NCBI GenBank assembly: GCA_022822425.1
Contig: JAJEBS010000063.1
Location: 1 to 40,599, forward strand
DNA length: 40,599 nt
Reading direction: 5' to 3'
From: Gemmatimonadota bacterium
GTDB taxonomy: Bacteria > Gemmatimonadota > Gemmatimonadetes > Longimicrobiales > Gaopeijiaceae
The notes under the pieces were generated by a model. That model saw nothing but the letters and a program-made list of their open reading frames with translations, was not told the DNA's origin and did not search any database. Positions 21,374 through 30,105 of the stretch are shown here, piece by piece. The position numbers and the translations under genes are program-made. Each line of letters opens with the position of its first letter. Position 1 is the stretch's first letter.

Positions 21374-23017
21374 TCAGCCGCGGAACGACCCGACGCCCGC
21401 GGGGTTCGCGGCACGGGACCCGTCACGGGCCAGCCGGACGGATAAGCGATCGTGAAGCGCATCCAGGAATTCCCGTCCGTAGCGCATCAGGTAGTAGCAG
21501 GCATTCAACGATCGTTCCTGCGGACCTCCCCGCGGATACAGGTGCACCTGAGCCTTCTCTAGCTGGCTGAGCTTCGTCTGCTTCTCCCGCTTCAGGCTGT
21601 GGATGATCTTCTTCCGCATCTGTTCGAGTGCGTCGAAGGCCACCGTGCGAACGTGCCTGGCGGGTCCCTTGAGGGTGGGATCCAGTGTAGCCGCCGCGCG
21701 ACTCAGCTCCTCCACACCCCTGCCGATACCCCCGCGCAAGTCGGCAAGTGCCTGACGGACGCCCTCGGGTACGTCCTCCTGCACGACGCGTCCGGCGAGT
21801 TCGCCGAAGGGTCGGGCCAGATCCTCGAGGGAAAGGTCCAGTTTGTCGAGGACCTTGCGAATCTTGGGTTCGATGACCGTCACCGAGAACCGGGGGTGGA
21901 CGACCGGCATCCGGATCCCGGAGACCTCGAACAGCTCCCGGAGCTGTGCGAAGTAGGCGATTTCGCCTGGTCCGGCCACGTAGGACACCACCGGGAACAC
22001 TGCACCTTCGACCACGGGGCGGAGCAGGACGTTGGGGCTCAGCACACGGGGGTCGGCATCCGACTCGGCGAGGATCCGGCGGCGGGAGAGAAGCTGGCCC
22101 GAGTGCCTGAGCCGGAAATCTCCCCCGCTCCGGTACACGCGCTCCCGCCCCGAACCTCCCTCGAAGAAAAGGTTGACCCCGCCGTCGAGAATGGGAACCT
22201 GTACGTGGTATCCGGCCGCCTGCAGCTGTTCCGCGGTTCTGCCCAGCAGCGCCTCCTGCTCGGGCGCGCCGTCCAGCACCGCCGTGAACAACGTCCGCGA
22301 GGCACGCTTGAGGGGGAGCGAAGAGGCGTCGACGAATGCCATCCCCAGCGGCCCCAGCCAATCGGCGAGCACCTGGGTGAAGGCCTCGCCCAGGGAGTTC
22401 CCCGGTGCGTACGCGGAACGCAGGCGCCGCGCGCAGGAGGGTTTGAAGTCGTTGTCCGGAAAGAGCGAGAGGAATTCGTCCAGCACCGGGTTGATGGCTT
22501 TGCCCATGGGCACCCGGTGGACGGGACGGTCCCCGCGCTCCGAACCGTCGTCGAGTGCGACGCGCCGCAGCTCGTTGGAGACGCTCACGGTGTAGGTGTG
22601 GTCCACCTCTCTCCAGTCGTGATCCTCGGACGCCACCCAGAAGAGGGGAACCACAGGCCTTCCCAGGATACCCTCGAGGGTGCCCGCCAGCCGGACGGCA
22701 GTGAGCGCCTTGTAGACGCTGTACAGAGGGCCGGTGAAGAGACCGGGCTGCTGGCCCGTCGTCACGAAGAAGCCACCCTCCTCGATCAGCCGATCCAGCC
22801 GGGCCCGCACCGACGGCGCAGGGGCGTGGATGCATTCCACGGCGCGGGCTCGAGCGGCGCGGTCGAAGCGGGCCGTCACCGCCTCCGCCGCGGACGCGTA
22901 GCTGGCCGCAAGCGTGGGGTCGCCCTGGAAGAACTCGAGGGCGGAGGGCTGCCGGGTCAGGTAGTCTGCGACCAGGCGGGAGCCGGAGGGATGGCCGACG
23001 AGCAGCTCCAGGTTCAC
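21374..23017 (-). CDS. bshC: Bacillithiol biosynthesis cysteine-adding enzyme BshC
   Basis: BshC adds cysteine to glucosaminyl-malate in the last step of bacillithiol synthesis. The 547-residue protein has the family's Rossmann-like core motifs TGQQPGLFTGPLYSVYKAL (87-105) and FWVASEDHDWREVDH (126-140), and later YVAGPGEIAYFAQLRELF and MPVVHPRFSVTVIEPKI. A long coiled-coil region runs through the C-terminal third, followed by RSLNACYYLMRYGREFLDAL, all as in B. subtilis BshC. The GTG start overlaps the lpxK stop (GTGA). BshA and BshB are not in the window. Bacillithiol in a diderm is known from some non-Firmicute lineages, so this fits an FCB-type organism. Confidence 0.95.
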   Translation of the reverse strand: MNLELLVGHPSGSRLVADYLTRQPSALEFFQGDPTLAASYASAAEAVTARFDRAARARAVECIHAPAPSVRARLDRLIEEGGFFVTTGQQPGLFTGPLYSVYKALTAVRLAGTLEGILGRPVVPLFWVASEDHDWREVDHTYTVSVSNELRRVALDDGSERGDRPVHRVPMGKAINPVLDEFLSLFPDNDFKPSCARRLRSAYAPGNSLGEAFTQVLADWLGPLGMAFVDASSLPLKRASRTLFTAVLDGAPEQEALLGRTAEQLQAAGYHVQVPILDGGVNLFFEGGSGRERVYRSGGDFRLRHSGQLLSRRRILAESDADPRVLSPNVLLRPVVEGAVFPVVSYVAGPGEIAYFAQLRELFEVSGIRMPVVHPRFSVTVIEPKIRKVLDKLDLSLEDLARPFGELAGRVVQEDVPEGVRQALADLRGGIGRGVEELSRAAATLDPTLKGPARHVRTVAFDALEQMRKKIIHSLKREKQTKLSQLEKAQVHLYPRGGPQERSLNACYYLMRYGREFLDALHDRLSVRLARDGSRAANPAGVGSFRG

Positions 23018-24075
23018 CGGCCGCCACCTCCGATCAGGCTGGGCGGAAAACGCCCGTCTGTCATTCCGGCGATCCCCGGCAGCTCACCGAGTGCGTCTTC
23101 CAGCCATCGCCGGCCCCTCTCGACTACGACCTCGAGGTGCAGAACGCGCGCGTCTACGCCGTGCTCGCTCAGCTGTTGCAACTTCACCGCATCCTTGGCG
23201 GTCGTCACGACCGGGCGCCCGCGCGCGCGGTGCGCGATGGCGGCCATGTCCGCCGCGGAGTAGCGGTGGTGGTCGCTGAAGGTCATCGATTCGAACTCCA
23301 TGCCGGGGATATCCCGCTGCAGCAACCCGTGAAACTCCCACGGGCGGGCAATGCCTGACAAGACCAGCGCCGAGCCCGTCGGGGCAGAGGCGGGAGCACC
23401 CGCGACATCGCTCCATCGGGAGAACGCCAGGCTCACCAGGGCAGAACGCAACCGGTGGACCGCCTCGAGCATCCGGGCTCGGCGACGGGCCGCGCGAAAA
23501 CTAGCGATTCGCCGCGTTACGATCACACCCCCGGCGCGCGTCAGGGCGCTCTCCGGCTCCCGATAGGGCCCGCGAGGCAGGAGCCGCAGCGGCGTCGGGT
23601 GCTCCGCCGCGACCAGCACCAGATCCAGATCACGCGCCAGGGCCCGATGCTGGAAGCCGTCGTCGAGGATCACCACCTGCGCGCCCCGTTCCACGACCGC
23701 GGCCGCGGCGCGCGCCCGGTGGCGGTCGGCGGCGACCGGCGCCTCGGGATTCCATTGCCGGTGCAGCAGCACTTCGTCGAAACCGTAGCCGTTGGTCACG
23801 ATGCCGGGGGTCACGCCGCGCTGCAGGAACCAGGCGGCCAGCCAGGCCGTCACAGGTGTCTTGCCGCTCCCCCCCACCGCCAGGTTTCCGACCGACACCA
23901 CCGGCACTCCGGCCGACCGGATCGGCAACCGTCCGGCGTCGTAGCGGCGGTTGCGGGCCGCCACCCCCGCGGTAAAGGCCATTTCCAGCGGCAGCAGAGT
24001 CAGTCCGGCCGCGGCCGCCGCCCGGGTGGACGCCCCCCACACCCACCCCAGTCCCGCTTCCACAACCCGCCTCAT
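23014..24075 (-). CDS. lpxK: Tetraacyldisaccharide 4'-kinase
   Basis: LpxK phosphorylates the 4' position of the lipid A disaccharide at the inner face of the inner membrane. The 353-residue protein has an N-terminal hydrophobic helix (about 20-40), the Walker A loop VGNLAVGGSGKTP (62-74), and the family motif VVILDDGFQHRALARDLDLV. It also has the usual LPRGPYREP and FSDHHRY segments. The ATG overlaps the lpxB stop (ATGA) and its own stop overlaps the bshC start (GTGA). It directly follows lpxB, whose product is its substrate. Confidence 0.95.
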   Translation of the reverse strand: MRRVVEAGLGWVWGASTRAAAAAGLTLLPLEMAFTAGVAARNRRYDAGRLPIRSAGVPVVSVGNLAVGGSGKTPVTAWLAAWFLQRGVTPGIVTNGYGFDEVLLHRQWNPEAPVAADRHRARAAAAVVERGAQVVILDDGFQHRALARDLDLVLVAAEHPTPLRLLPRGPYREPESALTRAGGVIVTRRIASFRAARRRARMLEAVHRLRSALVSLAFSRWSDVAGAPASAPTGSALVLSGIARPWEFHGLLQRDIPGMEFESMTFSDHHRYSAADMAAIAHRARGRPVVTTAKDAVKLQQLSEHGVDARVLHLEVVVERGRRWLEDALGELPGIAGMTDGRFPPSLIGGGGR

Positions 24076-25214
24076 CCGGGGACGGCCCCCGGTGGCCGGA
24101 CCAACAGCGATTCCGCGATCCCCGCCACCCGCCGCGCCGCGCCCGCCGAACCGAGCGCGCGACGAACTTCGCCCAGGCCGGAAATCACGGCCCGTCGTTC
24201 CGCCGTGTCGTCGAGGAGCGGAAGCAGCGCGCGTTCGAGCCGCGCCGGGGTTGCCTGGTGCTGGATCAGCTCGGGCACCACCCGCCGGCCGGCGATGAGG
24301 TTGGCCATGGCGATGTGGTCCACGCGCACCAGGCGCCGGGCCAGGGCGAAGGTGAGGGGATGCGTCCGGTATGCGGTGGCGAAGGGCACGCCCGCGAGCG
24401 CCGCCTCCACGGTGGAGGTGCCCGACTTCACCAGCGCTGCGCGCGCGTGACGGAGCAGACTTCGGCCATCGTCGACGACGGTGGCGGCGACCCCCGAGTA
24501 CGCGCGAGCGGGCAGACCGGGCGCGCGCGCCACCACAACCTGCAGTCGGGAGCGCGCGTGCTGGAGCCGGCGGGCGGCGCCCAGAAACACCTCCAGGTGG
24601 CGGTCGAGTTCCTGACGTCTGGACCCGGGAAAGAGCGCCAGCAGCGGCCGCCGAGCGTCGAGACCGTGTGCGCGGCAATAGTCGGCGCGTGCCGGCACCG
24701 TGTGCTCGACCTCGAGCAGCGGGTGCCCCACGAAGGTCGCACGAGCGCCTGCCCTCTGCAGGAACCCGGCCTCGAAGGGGAGAATCACGGCGACGTGATC
24801 GGTGTCGCGGGCCAGCCGCCGGGCGCGCCCCGGCCTCCACGCCCAGACCTGGGGTGCGATGTAGTACAACACCCGGATTCCAGCCTCGCGGGCGTATCTC
24901 GCGACACGCAGGTTGAATCCCGGGTAGTCGATCGGGATGACCAGGTTCACGCCGTGGCGGTGCATGGCGGCGCGAACCCGGCCCATGAGCCGGCGAAAGA
25001 AGCCGAGGTGGCGCACGACCTCCGCGAAGCCCATGACCGCAAGCTGATCGAGACCCGCCATGCACTCGACCCCCTCGGCCTCCATGCGTTCGCCTCCCAG
25101 CCCCAGCAGCCGGGCGGACGGCCACTTTTCGAGCAGTGAGCGGGCGAGGGCGGCCCCGTGAAGGTCACCGGAGGGCTCCCCGGCGAGCATGAGGATCACC
25201 GGGTCGCGCGCCAC
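24072..25214 (-). CDS. lpxB: Lipid A disaccharide synthase
   Basis: LpxB joins lipid X to UDP-2,3-diacylglucosamine to form the lipid A disaccharide. The 380-residue protein has the GT-B glycosyltransferase layout with family motifs MLAGEPSGDLHGA (9-21), MGFAEVVRHLGFFRR, IPIDYPGFNLR, YYIAPQVWAW and FVGHPLLE. It continues with LFPGSRRQE and KSGTSTVEAALAGVPF. The start is GTG, three bases after the stop of the 44-aa gene, so translation is probably coupled. The pathway gap before it (LpxH or LpxI, which makes lipid X) is not filled by a recognisable gene in this window. Confidence 0.96.
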   Translation of the reverse strand: MARDPVILMLAGEPSGDLHGAALARSLLEKWPSARLLGLGGERMEAEGVECMAGLDQLAVMGFAEVVRHLGFFRRLMGRVRAAMHRHGVNLVIPIDYPGFNLRVARYAREAGIRVLYYIAPQVWAWRPGRARRLARDTDHVAVILPFEAGFLQRAGARATFVGHPLLEVEHTVPARADYCRAHGLDARRPLLALFPGSRRQELDRHLEVFLGAARRLQHARSRLQVVVARAPGLPARAYSGVAATVVDDGRSLLRHARAALVKSGTSTVEAALAGVPFATAYRTHPLTFALARRLVRVDHIAMANLIAGRRVVPELIQHQATPARLERALLPLLDDTAERRAVISGLGEVRRALGSAGAARRVAGIAESLLVRPPGAVPG

Positions 25215-25217
25215 CGG

Positions 25218-25352
25218 TCAGAACCGGAACCCCAGGTACCAGATGACCACCAGCACCGCCACCAGCAGCGCGATGAGCTTCGTGGGGGGCTTGCCCCGCT
25301 TGGCGTCGATCCAGTCCTTCTTGCGGTTACGACGTACGCGAATGAGCGACAT
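25218..25352 (-). CDS. 44-residue single-pass membrane protein, unknown function
   Basis: A very short gene starting MSLIRVRRNRKKDWIDAKRG. About 20 strongly basic residues precede one hydrophobic helix (LIALLVAVLVVIWYLGF) and the protein ends two residues later. Support for coding: AGAGGA about 9 bases before the ATG, a 26-base overlap with the 3' end of the oxidoreductase gene, a 3-base gap to lpxB, and a clean basic-then-hydrophobic design. Orientation would place the basic N-terminus in the cytosol (positive-inside rule). I recognise no family. Its place inside the lipid A genes suggests an accessory or regulator of a membrane-bound step. Confidence 0.7.
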   Translation of the reverse strand: MSLIRVRRNRKKDWIDAKRGKPPTKLIALLVAVLVVIWYLGFRF

Positions 25353-26364
25353 GATCCAGAATCCTCTTCTCGATGCACAGGGTGATCTCCAGAGCCGCCC
25401 GGCCCTCATCACCGGAGACGACGGGGTCGGAGCGCCCGAGCGCCGAATCCCGGAAACCCTCAAGCTCGACGCGCAGCGGTTCTTCGGGGAAACCCTCGAA
25501 GGGAATGCGCTCGACGATGTCCTCCAGCCCCGGAGCCGCCCCCGGGTCCGGTCCCGCCCTCCCCTCTTCCACGCTGGCTTCCCGGGCGTCTTCAAGCAAG
25601 GCGGGCAGGTCTCGCCGGAGCCGCAGGAACTCACCCCTCCCGCGCGCGAGATCGACGCGCAGGTATCCCGACCGCTGGAAGACGCGCAGCATGCGTTGCC
25701 CTTCGCTCGACACCCGACTCGCGGTCAGGTTGGCCACCGCCCCGTTGCGGAAGGTGAGGCGCGCGTTGGCAATGTCCACCGAGGGGGTCAGCACCGGGAT
25801 GCCCGCGGCGGCGATGTCCGCCAGCGGCGCCTTCACCAGCATGCGCACCAGGTCGACGTCGTGAATCATCAGGTCGAGCACGACGGCCACGTCCGTGCCC
25901 CGGGGGCGAAAGGGCGCGAGGCGCTGCGATTCGATGAAGAGCGGAGCGTCGATGTACGGAGCCGCCGCCCGGAGCGCGCCGTTGAACCGCTCCACATGCC
26001 CGGTCTGCACCACGCAGCCCGCCCGGCGGGCCGCGGCCAGGATGCGATCGGCGGCTTCGAGCGAAGGCGCGATGGGCTTCTCGATCAGAAGGTGAACACC
26101 GCGTCCGGCCGCCGCGAGCGCCACCTCTTCGTGGGAGGACGTGGGCACCGCCACCACCAGCGCGTCTACCTCCGACAACAGCTCCCGCAGACTGCGGGCC
26201 GGCTCAAGCTCGAGCTCCCTTGACACGAACGCGGCCCGGCGTGCGTCCACATCGAAGAATCCCGCCATCCGGACTTCGGGCAGATCGCGCAGAATCCGCG
26301 CGTGATGGAAGCCCAGGCTCCCGACGCCGGCCACCCCCATGCGGATCGGGGTGGGACGGCTCAT
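25327..26364 (-). CDS. Gfo/Idh/MocA-family oxidoreductase in the lipid A cluster (GnnA-like position)
   Basis: A 345-residue NAD(P)-dependent sugar oxidoreductase. Residues 8-20 are a Rossmann loop (MGVAGVGSLGFHH, G13-G15-G18), EKP at 95-97 is the family's catalytic lysine motif, and HDVDL with His168 is in the substrate domain. It lies between lpxA (ATGA overlap) and lpxB. In Acidithiobacillus ferrooxidans, as I recall, gnnA of this family and the aminotransferase gnnB occupy that place and convert UDP-GlcNAc into a 3-amino sugar, giving amide-linked 3-acyl chains on lipid A. Here no aminotransferase accompanies it, so a GnnA role is inferred from position only. An alternative is a different nucleotide-sugar oxidation. 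Confidence 0.85.
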   Translation of the reverse strand: MSRPTPIRMGVAGVGSLGFHHARILRDLPEVRMAGFFDVDARRAAFVSRELELEPARSLRELLSEVDALVVAVPTSSHEEVALAAAGRGVHLLIEKPIAPSLEAADRILAAARRAGCVVQTGHVERFNGALRAAAPYIDAPLFIESQRLAPFRPRGTDVAVVLDLMIHDVDLVRMLVKAPLADIAAAGIPVLTPSVDIANARLTFRNGAVANLTASRVSSEGQRMLRVFQRSGYLRVDLARGRGEFLRLRRDLPALLEDAREASVEEGRAGPDPGAAPGLEDIVERIPFEGFPEEPLRVELEGFRDSALGRSDPVVSGDEGRAALEITLCIEKRILDHVAHSRTS

Positions 26365-27173
26365 CCGAGGGTTATGCCGCGTGCGCTGTTGCGGATGAAG
26401 TCGAGAAGGTGGCGAACTTCCGGAATCTGCTCGACGCCGGTTTCGACGCGGTCCATGGCCTGCGACACGTTCAGCCCGGACTGGAACAGGATGCGGTATG
26501 CCTGCCTGAGATGCCGGCGGGTAGCCGCCGGAAACCCGCGCCTCTCCAGTCCGACCGTGTTGAGCCCGTACAGTCTTGGACGTCCTCCTGCGGCCCGGCA
26601 GTAGGGCGGAACGTCCTTCGAGACGCGTGCGCCGCCGCCAACGAAGACATGCGCGCCGATGCGCACGTACTGGTGGATGCCCACCAGCCCTCCGATGATG
26701 ACCCAGTCCTCGATGGTAACGTGGCCGGCCATGTTGACCGAGTTGGACAGTACGACATGGTTTCCCAGCCGGCAGTCGTGCGCCACGTGGACATAGGCCA
26801 TGAGGAGACAGTCGCTCCCCACCACCGTGCGCCCGGACGCGGCCGAGCCCCGATTGAGGGTCGCGTATTCGCGGACGACGGTACGGTCGCCGACGATCAG
26901 CTCGGAGCGCTCGCCCTTGTACTTGAGGTCCTGCGGATCGGTGCCCAGCACCGCGCCCTGACCAAGACGGCACCCCTCGCCCAGGGAGGTATCCCGCTCG
27001 ATGAGCACGTGCGGGCCGATTCGGGTTCTGGGGCCTACGCGCACGCCCGGCCCGATGATCGCCCAGGGCCCTACGACCACCTCCGCTCCGAGCACGGCTC
27101 CGTCGTCCACGATCGCCGTCGGATGGACGTCGGGCTGAACGGTCCGCGAAGGTTCGAGCAGCGAATCACCCAT
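26361..27173 (-). CDS. lpxA: UDP-N-acetylglucosamine O-acyltransferase
   Basis: LpxA places the first 3-hydroxyacyl chain on UDP-GlcNAc (or on a 3-amino variant) in lipid A synthesis. The 270-residue protein is a left-handed beta-helix of hexapeptide repeats (IVDDGAVLGAEVVVGPWAI and later turns). It has the catalytic His132 in YVHVAHDCRLGN (E. coli His125), the GIHQYVRIGAHVFVGGGARV block, and a helical C-terminal domain beginning LNTVGLERRGFPAATRRHL. The ATG immediately follows the lpxC-fabZ stop with no gap. Whether it acylates an oxygen or a nitrogen cannot be told by eye and matters for the neighbouring oxidoreductase. Confidence 0.96.
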   Translation of the reverse strand: MGDSLLEPSRTVQPDVHPTAIVDDGAVLGAEVVVGPWAIIGPGVRVGPRTRIGPHVLIERDTSLGEGCRLGQGAVLGTDPQDLKYKGERSELIVGDRTVVREYATLNRGSAASGRTVVGSDCLLMAYVHVAHDCRLGNHVVLSNSVNMAGHVTIEDWVIIGGLVGIHQYVRIGAHVFVGGGARVSKDVPPYCRAAGGRPRLYGLNTVGLERRGFPAATRRHLRQAYRILFQSGLNVSQAMDRVETGVEQIPEVRHLLDFIRNSARGITLG

Positions 27174-28457
27174 TCAGTCCACGACCCTCGCCATGAATTC
27201 GGCCTCCGCGGCCAGCACCCCGTCCACGTATCCTTCGCCTCTCATCTTGCAGGTTCCGCGCCGGAAGCGCAGAAGCTCCACCTCGCACACCAGCTGGTCG
27301 CCGGGCACCACCGGCCGCCGGAAGCGTGCCTTCTGTATCGACATCAGATAGACCTGCTTGTCGCGCGGGTTGCCCACGGAATCGATGAGCAGAAGTCCGC
27401 CGATCTGGGCCATCGCCTCCACGATGAGCACGCCGGGCATGATGGCCCGTCCGGGAAAGTGTCCCTGGAAGAAGGGTTCGTTGATGGTGACGTTCTTGAT
27501 GCCCGTGATGTGGCGCCCGCCTTCGACAGCGGCGATGCGATCCACGAGCAGCATCGGATAGCGGTGCGGCAGGTAGCTCCGAATCCGCTCGACGTCGAAC
27601 GCGGGCGCGGCAGGCGCGCGGTCAAGCCGCTCCGCGAGGAGTCGTCCGAGTTCGATGTTTCCGTTGTGACTCGGTCGCTCCACCACCAGATGACCCCGCA
27701 GCCGGCGGCCCAGCAGCGTCAGATCGCCCAGTACGTCCCCGATCTTGTGACGCAGGTATTCGTCGGGGAACCGCAGTCCGTCGTTGGCGACGCCTTCGTC
27801 GTCCAGAACGATGGTGTTGGCCGGCGAAGCCCCCCGGGCGAGGCCGCGCGCATGCAGTTCCTCCGCGTCGGCGAGGAAACCGAAGGTGCGCGCCGGAGCG
27901 ATGTCGGCTCGGAAACCGGTGCCGAAGCCGTCGAATGATCCGGTCTGGCGCCCGATCGCGGGGTGTTCGAAGTCGATGGTCGCCGTGATGCGGAATCCCG
28001 GGCCGGGCGCAAGGATGTACGATTCGCCCCCGGCAGCGCGCAGCACGACGGGCTCATCGAACTCGGCCACCCGCGCGGGCGCGTCCTGTTCCGCCACTCC
28101 CGCCGCCTCCAGAGCATCCAGAAAGTCCAGGAAGCTCCCGTCCCGAATGGGGATCTCGGGTCCGGAGACGTCCACCCGTACGTTGGAAATCCCGCGGGCG
28201 CCCAACGCCGCCATGAGGTGCTCCACAGTGCGAACCCGGGCTTCCCCGCGGCCGATGCTCGTTCCGAGCTCGGTGTCCACGACGTGATCCAGGGTGGCGG
28301 GAATCTCGGGTTTGCCGGGCAGGTCGATCCGCCGGAAGACGATGCCGGCGCCGGGTCCGGCGGGATGGAACGACACGGCCGCGGGCTCCCCCAGATGAAT
28401 GCCGATGCCCTCCAGGCTCACCTCCCGGCCGATCGTGCGCTGGCGGTTCCCGTTCAT
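27174..28457 (-). CDS. lpxC-fabZ: Bifunctional LpxC deacetylase / FabZ dehydratase fusion
   Basis: Residues 1-275 are LpxC, the zinc deacetylase that commits UDP-acyl-GlcNAc to lipid [10 protein letters not shown] provides Glu79 and zinc ligand His80, and [12 protein letters not shown] provides His237, Lys238 and Asp241. SHNGN provides His264. Residues about 285-427 are FabZ, the 3-hydroxyacyl-ACP dehydratase: [13 protein letters not shown] (296-308), [13 protein letters not shown] with His333 and VEAMAQ with Glu347. Both active sites look intact. This fusion is typical of FCB-group bacteria and couples control of lipid A commitment to the 3-hydroxyacyl-ACP pool used by both pathways. The ATG overlaps the lpxD stop (ATGA). 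Confidence 0.96.
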
Positions 28458-29515
28458 GGACGCTCCTCCTGCCCGGTCATGACTCGTCCTTCCCTCTCCA
28501 GCGCGGACAGGCGGTCCTCCAGCTCCTTTACACGCTCCCTCAGCGCCGGAAGCCTGCGCATCGCCGCCATGGACTTCCAGAACTCCGCGCGGGGACGCCC
28601 GGGGAACCCGACCACGCTGGTCCCGGCGGGGACATCCCTGATCACTCCGGTCTGCACGGCCACCCGTGCCCCGTCGCCGATCTCCAGGTGCCCGGTCGCG
28701 CCCGACTGACCCGCCATCACCACGCCCTTGCCGAGCGTCGTGGAGCCGGAGATGCCCACCTGGGCGATCAGGAGCGAGTGGTCGCCCACGTTCACGTTGT
28801 GGGCGACATGGACCAGATTGTCGGTCTTGGTGCCCGCGCCGATCACGGTGTCCCCGATGGATCCCCGGTCGACGCAACAGTGGGCGCCCATCTCCACGTC
28901 GTCACCGATGAGGCAGCCGCCCACCTGGCGGATCTTCTCGTGGGCGCCCTTGCGCATCACGAAGCCGAAGCCGTCCGAGCCCACGACGGTCCCGGCATGG
29001 AGGACGACGCGCCGACCCAGCCGGGTTCCCGGATAGAGAACGACATGCGGGTGCAGCCGCGAGCCGGCGCCGATGCGCGATCCCGCGCCCACCGATACGT
29101 GGGCGCCTATGTGCGCGCGGTCGCCGACTTCGACGTCCTCCTCCAGCACCGCGTAGGCATCGATGCGCACGTCCCGGCCGAGCCTGGCGCCCTTGCCCAG
29201 AACGGCCGTGGGATGGATCCCCGGAAGCGCCTCCTCCGGGGGATGGAGCCGATTCAGCAACTGCGCCAGGGCGAGGCGCGGCCGGCCCGCGATCAACAGG
29301 TTCGGCACACGGTCGCGCACGAAAGCGGAAAGGCTCTCCGACACCAGCAGAGCCTCGGCCGAGGACGAGTCCAGGTGCTTGAGGTAGCGCCGGTCGCCGA
29401 GAAAACCCAGCCTGCCGCGCCCGGCCTGATCCACCGGCACGACTCGATCGAAGGTCCAGCCGGACCGCCCTTCCAGGCGCGCGCCGGTGAGAGCGGCGGC
29501 TCCTGCAAGGTCCAT
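28454..29515 (-). CDS. lpxD: UDP-3-O-(3-hydroxyacyl)glucosamine N-acyltransferase
   Basis: LpxD adds the second hydroxyacyl chain, on the 2-amine. The 353-residue protein has the uridine-binding N-terminal domain (VVPVDQAGRGRLGFLGDRRY) and a left-handed beta-helix. The catalytic His239 in LVHVAHNVNVGD has the same number as E. coli LpxD with this start. A C-terminal helix follows (FWKSMAAMRRLPALRERV and a short coiled coil). The ATG at 29515 is chosen because the family starts at this point. An upstream GTG at 29575 that overlaps the ompH stop (GTGA) would add 20 Ser/Ala/Thr-rich residues and cannot be excluded, since neither start has a strong ribosome site. Confidence 0.95.
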   Translation of the reverse strand: MDLAGAAALTGARLEGRSGWTFDRVVPVDQAGRGRLGFLGDRRYLKHLDSSSAEALLVSESLSAFVRDRVPNLLIAGRPRLALAQLLNRLHPPEEALPGIHPTAVLGKGARLGRDVRIDAYAVLEEDVEVGDRAHIGAHVSVGAGSRIGAGSRLHPHVVLYPGTRLGRRVVLHAGTVVGSDGFGFVMRKGAHEKIRQVGGCLIGDDVEMGAHCCVDRGSIGDTVIGAGTKTDNLVHVAHNVNVGDHSLLIAQVGISGSTTLGKGVVMAGQSGATGHLEIGDGARVAVQTGVIRDVPAGTSVVGFPGRPRAEFWKSMAAMRRLPALRERVKELEDRLSALEREGRVMTGQEERP

Positions 29516-29571
29516 GGTCGTGTCCTGTCCTGCCGCGCTCGTGGCGGGCGCCGTCGACGACGACGGCGGGC

Positions 29572-30105
29572 TCACCGGCCGCCGGTGGGCGAATTCTGCA
29601 TGAGTCGGTCGATGACCTGCTGGGTCAGGTTGAGTTCGGGATCCGCGGAGACGATCGCCTGGCCGGAAAGGTCGAAGATGATGGCGTACCCGCCCTCCGT
29701 CCGGATCTGGTCAATCGCTTCGGTCACCTGATCCATGATGGGCTGCACCAGTTCCGCCTGTCGCCCGGCGGCCTCCCCCTCCAGCTCCGCGGCCCGCTGG
29801 TTGTACTCTTCCTGCTTCGCCTGGATGCTCTGGGTCTGGGTGTCCCGGGCCTGCGGAGAAAGGGTGAGCTGCTGTTGCTCGAACTGCTGGATCATGGTCT
29901 GCAGTTCTTCCCCGATCTGATCCAGTTCCGCGCGGTAGCGAGCCATGTCGCGCTCGAACTGGTCCTGTGCCTCGGTAGCCCCCGGGGCCTGCGCGAGAAT
30001 CGCCTGCGAATCGATGTACCCCAGCCTCAGTGGCCCCTGGGCGGCCGCGTCATCGGCCGGCATGAAGAAGAAGCCAGCCGCGAGAACAACTGCTATTGCA
30101 CGCAT
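29572..30105 (-). CDS. ompH: OmpH/Skp-family periplasmic chaperone
   Basis: The family holds unfolded outer-membrane proteins in the periplasm on their way to BamA. The 177-residue product has a signal peptide (AIAVVLAAGFFFMPADDAAA, cleavage near AAAQ). The OmpH core starts with LRLGYIDSQAILAQAPG, and two long Gln/Glu-rich helices (about 50-120, with EEYNQRAAELEGEAAGRQ) form the tentacles. The protein returns to the beta core at GGYAIIFDLSGQAIVSADPELNLTQQV. The ATG at 30105 has GTGGAGG 8 bases upstream. It lies 132 bases after bamA and before lpxD, the classic bamA-skp-lpxD order. Confidence 0.93.
   Translation of the reverse strand: MRAIAVVLAAGFFFMPADDAAAQGPLRLGYIDSQAILAQAPGATEAQDQFERDMARYRAELDQIGEELQTMIQQFEQQQLTLSPQARDTQTQSIQAKQEEYNQRAAELEGEAAGRQAELVQPIMDQVTEAIDQIRTEGGYAIIFDLSGQAIVSADPELNLTQQVIDRLMQNSPTGGR

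Follow-up and report, generated by a model that had tools for sequence, protein, structure and literature searches.

An oxidoreductase gene of the Gfo/Idh/MocA family lies between lpxA and lpxB in the window considered here, a stretch of 40,599 nucleotides on contig C22 of a Gemmatimonadota genome (completeness 89.44%, 339 contigs). The question raised by this locus is what such an enzyme does for lipid A when its expected partners are not beside it. As the preliminary description had it, the cluster lacks GnnB and LpxH/LpxI: a DegT aminotransferase, LpxI and a metallophosphatase/LpxH-like protein were all sought on the window contig without a match. The minus-strand order is BamA, OmpH/Skp, LpxD, LpxC-FabZ, LpxA, the oxidoreductase, a 44-aa ORF, LpxB, LpxK and BshC. 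Assignments of the lpx genes listed below follow NCBIfam models with curated cut-offs.

28454-29575, minus strand: lpxD (TIGR01853, 331.8 bits against a cut-off of 242.5)
27174-28448, minus strand: lpxC-fabZ fusion (LpxC and FabZ models both above cut-off; predicted start)
26361-27173, minus strand: lpxA, first acyltransferase (TIGR01852, 333.8 bits against a cut-off of 231; aligns to solved LpxA)
25327-26364, minus strand: gnnA, Gfo/Idh/MocA family, putative UDP-GlcNAc 3-dehydrogenase
25218-25352, minus strand: ORF of 44 aa containing a single hydrophobic stretch, MSLIRVRRNRKKDWIDAKRGKPPTKLIALLVAVLVVIWYLGFRF; it overlaps gnnA at its end
24072-25214, minus strand: lpxB (TIGR00215, 293.5 bits against a cut-off of 190)
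23014-24075, minus strand: lpxK (TIGR00682, 129.6 bits against a cut-off of 92; predicted start)

The reported overlap of the oxidoreductase gene with the lpxA stop is confirmed as an ATGA junction, with the ATG at 26364-26362 lying on the TGA at 26363-26361; the ORF ends at 25327 and its product matches Pfam GFO_IDH_MocA. The small ORF directly before lpxB encodes a basic start followed by the hydrophobic stretch (MSLIRVRR..RKK..WYLG) and has no Pfam match. In families f1 and f2 it recurs at 9/10 of the gnnA-bearing loci checked and at 9/9 of those lacking gnnA; the four loci checked in families f4 and f5 do not have it.

By several comparisons the oxidoreductase is orthologous to GnnA. The closest solved structure by sequence is 7bvj (E 1e-49), titled in the PDB as GnnA of A. 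ferrooxidans, with 42.7% identity to the window protein over 232 aa. The 7bvj sequence is in turn 99% identical to an Acidithiobacillus ferruginosus ORF located between lpxA and a DegT gene (gnnB), in genomes retrieved via the rusticyanin gene. In a careful tree that also held 14 Gfo proteins of WbpB-like and other types, 45 GnnA rows including that of A. ferrooxidans form a single clade with support of 100/100; identity of the window protein to such non-GnnA Gfo proteins from the phylum is 22-27%. Foldseek matching of the predicted structure (pLDDT 89.4) returned 7bvj/7bvk chains as its top five hits, the best at E 5e-35 and the next family at E 2e-23. The catalytic Lys (EKP, K96) and His (MIHD, H168) of the superfamily are invariant in all 45 GnnA rows, and 40 near-invariant residues are common to the window protein and GnnA; six of these (L17, F152, M166, I167, R217 and Y234) occur in 0/14 other Gfo proteins. 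Rather than falling far from GnnA, an outcome that the preliminary description had named, together with ester-linked 3-acyl chains, as counting against its reading, the oxidoreductase groups with the biochemically known enzyme, and its substrate is likely UDP-GlcNAc.

The arrangement extends well beyond this genome. Among 200 sampled Gemmatimonadota genomes, 171 have a gnnA match at E <= 1e-20. The lpxA-gnnA arrangement is not due to chance, since gnnA follows lpxA directly in 121 of the 125 genomes for which both coordinates were listed, at spacings of -7 to 174 bases. The four exceptions belong to another class (family f10), where gnnA adjoins lpxB in 5/5 genomes examined. The order lpxA, gnnA, lpxB is also seen in the cultured Gemmatirosa kalamazoonensis, a member of the same class represented in the sample by G080, one contig of which is 100% identical to a named plasmid. 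Within the family of the window, 12 gnnA-less loci were read at length; the operon there is otherwise intact, with lpxA and lpxB present and no gnnA between them.

Where, then, might the aminotransferase be encoded? The only full-length DegT aminotransferase of the genome lies at C131:11314-12450, on a contig separate from gnnA, with a TPR gene on one side and a BamD-like gene on the other. Its product is 44% identical to Acidithiobacillus GnnB, and in a quick tree with midpoint root the main-class DegT proteins join that GnnB (SH-aLRT 91) and not WbpE, DesV or QdtB. These relationships make the C131 protein a GnnB candidate. Adjacency of gnnB to gnnA is not required, as the two lie apart in Mesorhizobium loti (PMC5644692). 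Orthologues of WbpB (both the f4 and f5 types) and WbpD were sought in the genome as other partners of the DegT protein and not found, the search with the f5 type yielding only generic paralogues near E 1e-20; GnnA is therefore the single 3-dehydrogenase identified as a partner of the DegT protein, and the latter the single aminotransferase identified for GnnA.

The distribution of the two genes bears on this pairing. Across the 200 genomes, by E-value thresholds, 154 have both, 17 have gnnA only, 12 have the DegT gene only and 17 have neither. Within the family of the window, the DegT gene is present in 37/37 genomes with gnnA and absent from 14/15 without it (G103 is classed as gnnA-less, its weak match at E 3e-31 not lying at lpxA). 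A Fisher test on joint absence in this family gives p 8e-12. In a quick lpx tree, 11 of the 12 gnnA-less loci form one clade, so that the joint absence reflects one or two independent events and its support for pairing is suggestive rather than strong, weaker than the p value implies. Among the gnnA-less genera, one genome (G154; L166, L236) is alone in keeping the DegT gene, which there adjoins a gene resembling Ugd; this genome encodes a WbpD homologue on a different contig and has no gnnA at lpxA.

For the pyrophosphatase step preceding LpxB, the whole-genome search for partners envisaged in the preliminary description returned, in addition to the GnnB candidate, a candidate of the LpxH2 type, and no LpxI. 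The LpxI_C domain had no match in this genome, the only one searched, and a control Caulobacter genome matched. The LpxH2-type phosphoesterase, at C15:5142-5921, matches solved LpxH (E 7.5e-16) and has a complete five-block metallophosphoesterase motif (SDAH, NGD, GNHD, H, GHTH). On the curated NCBIfam LpxH models it falls short, with 71 bits against a cut-off of 134 and 59 bits against one of 190, and it is matched in 193/200 genomes of the phylum. A GNHD third block marks LpxH2, not LpxH, and lpxH2 of Pseudomonas aeruginosa failed to replace Escherichia coli lpxH (PMC3087551). The same survey found lpxH outside lpx gene clusters in the genomes covered, so the location on C15 is not odd. The C15 protein is the best pyrophosphatase candidate.

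Together these observations suggest the following pathway, to which we would assign a probability of about 0.75 as a whole. GnnA, encoded in the operon, would use NAD+ to oxidize UDP-GlcNAc at its 3-OH, yielding a 3-keto sugar, and the C131 DegT protein would carry out the GnnB step, aminating C3 to give UDP-GlcNAc3N. LpxA would take this nucleotide sugar, placing an amide-linked 3-acyl chain on one or both lipid A sugars; after the action of LpxC-FabZ and LpxD, the C15 phosphoesterase would release UMP before LpxB. The preliminary description had weighed partners encoded elsewhere against an enzyme doing something else to the nucleotide sugar; the former holds up, with candidates on C131 and C15, and the latter loses ground, the oxidoreductase grouping with known GnnA. 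A known enzyme in a known operon position with partners encoded elsewhere makes for a mostly ordinary explanation.

Given that the genome encodes GnnA together with a candidate for GnnB, lipid A with amide-linked 3-acyl chains is likely, a prediction that depends on the C131 protein having GnnB activity and is tempered by genomes that carry gnnA without a close DegT gene. A comparison of LpxA columns between relatives with and without gnnA found no discriminating residue, leaving the LpxA sequence uninformative on selectivity. Selectivity of Leptospira LpxA rests on a backbone carbonyl, which is unreadable from sequence. The family of the window includes close relatives that have gnnA and others that lack it, their operons otherwise equal, which offers a natural comparison for LpxA selectivity. 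The prediction of amide-linked 3-acyl chains covers most of a little-studied phylum, and a literature search found no paper on the lipid A of Gemmatimonadota. In Campylobacter jejuni, amide-linked chains lower TLR4 activation and raise resistance to antimicrobial peptides (PMC8036547, PMC8805021).

The surroundings of the DegT gene in other families suggest a further role. In families f4 and f6 (L202, L154, L165, L203, L204, L212) and in family f5 (L156, L195-L201), the same DegT gene is clustered, with variations, with homologues of WbpD, WbpB and WbpA; one WbpB-like Gfo subfamily is found in f4 and f6 and a different one in f5. Given this company, the DegT protein of these three families probably also serves UDP-GlcNAc3NAcA synthesis. 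It is conceivable, and we put it forward tentatively, that in Gemmatimonadota one 3-aminotransferase supplies two pathways, acting with GnnA to make the UDP-GlcNAc3N used in lipid A and with WbpB in a WbpE-like polysaccharide step, and that the lineage of the window lost the polysaccharide partners, so that the enzyme came to serve solely as GnnB, at a distance from the lpx operon. This double use of one aminotransferase may be the sole unusual point in a system that is otherwise mostly ordinary.

The same clusters are open to a reading in which lipid A is hardly involved: the 3-keto product of GnnA would bypass lipid A, or lipid A would be only slightly changed and consist mostly of GlcN, with the C131 DegT protein serving a surface polysaccharide in the manner of WbpE. 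A WbpA-like gene about 1 kb upstream of the DegT gene in this genome favors such a polysaccharide role, as do genomes having gnnA and no close DegT gene. The latter comprise eight of nine sampled genomes of genus g51 in family f7 (G042, G046, G054, G056, G060, G072, G149 and G163; G054, G060 and G149 searched for DegT only at E <= 1e-80), in which gnnA occupies its normal position after lpxA and no DegT protein comes closer than about 41% identity over partial length, together with G006, G094, G106, G119, G007 and G011. G006, which is 99% complete, has gnnA after lpxA and no DegT match at all. However, gnnA holds a fixed place after lpxA throughout the phylum, the present genome and nearly all of its family lack WbpB and WbpD, and the DegT gene of genus g2 and of family f9 stands alone with no Wbp-type neighbors. 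This reading is, on balance, unlikely.

Far less room is left for a misassignment of partners, with the real GnnB or pyrophosphatase encoded in the unsequenced part of the genome. The completeness and fragmentation given above allow for such a gene, but five genomes of the same genus (93-98% complete) each contain one match to the same DegT protein (E <= 1e-80) and also carry the same LpxH2, which renders this account highly improbable. That the oxidoreductase has some other Gfo/Idh/MocA activity and is merely located in the lpx operon is just as hard to credit: its score on an archaeal UDP-GlcNAc 3-dehydrogenase model (168.6 bits) is below the cut-off of 450, but Acidithiobacillus GnnA scores lower still (143 bits, from a scanned stretch of 233 aa), and the clade, the fold and the 40 shared near-invariant residues speak against it. 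The preferred scheme, with GnnA in the operon and its partners elsewhere, also carries a practical lesson: when a partner is missing from a cluster, the whole genome should be searched first.

The scheme resembles several systems already described. The LpxH2 proteins discussed in PMC3087551 share with the C15 protein the GNHD third block, the metallophosphoesterase type and a place outside the lpx cluster; their function is putative in that paper, as is the activity of the C15 candidate here. The WbpD-WbpE-WbpB-WbpA system, which makes UDP-GlcNAc3NAcA, uses the same chemistry at C3, and orthologues of the DegT protein are found in the f4, f5 and f6 clusters; unlike that system, the present genome has no WbpB or WbpD, and the tree places its DegT protein closer to GnnB than to WbpE of P. 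aeruginosa. In Capnocytophaga canimorsus, gnnA and gnnB were likewise recognized from A. ferrooxidans sequences, and its hybrid GlcN3N-GlcN backbone indicates that presence of the genes does not equate to two amide sites (PMC3342949); that organism has two lpxA genes, whereas here there is one per genome in nearly all cases. In M. loti, gnnA and gnnB are apart, as here, but gnnA is also outside the lpx cluster (PMC5644692). The A. ferrooxidans-type arrangement lpxA-gnnA-gnnB-lpxB differs in having gnnB between gnnA and lpxB, where the present candidate is on another contig, and the present operon differs in its fusion of lpxC to fabZ and in the 44-aa ORF between gnnA and lpxB. It is nevertheless the closest likeness: gnnA follows lpxA and precedes lpxB in both, the GnnA fold is the same, and the identities of 42.7% over 232 aa for GnnA and 44% between GnnB and the DegT protein of this genome link the two sets of enzymes.
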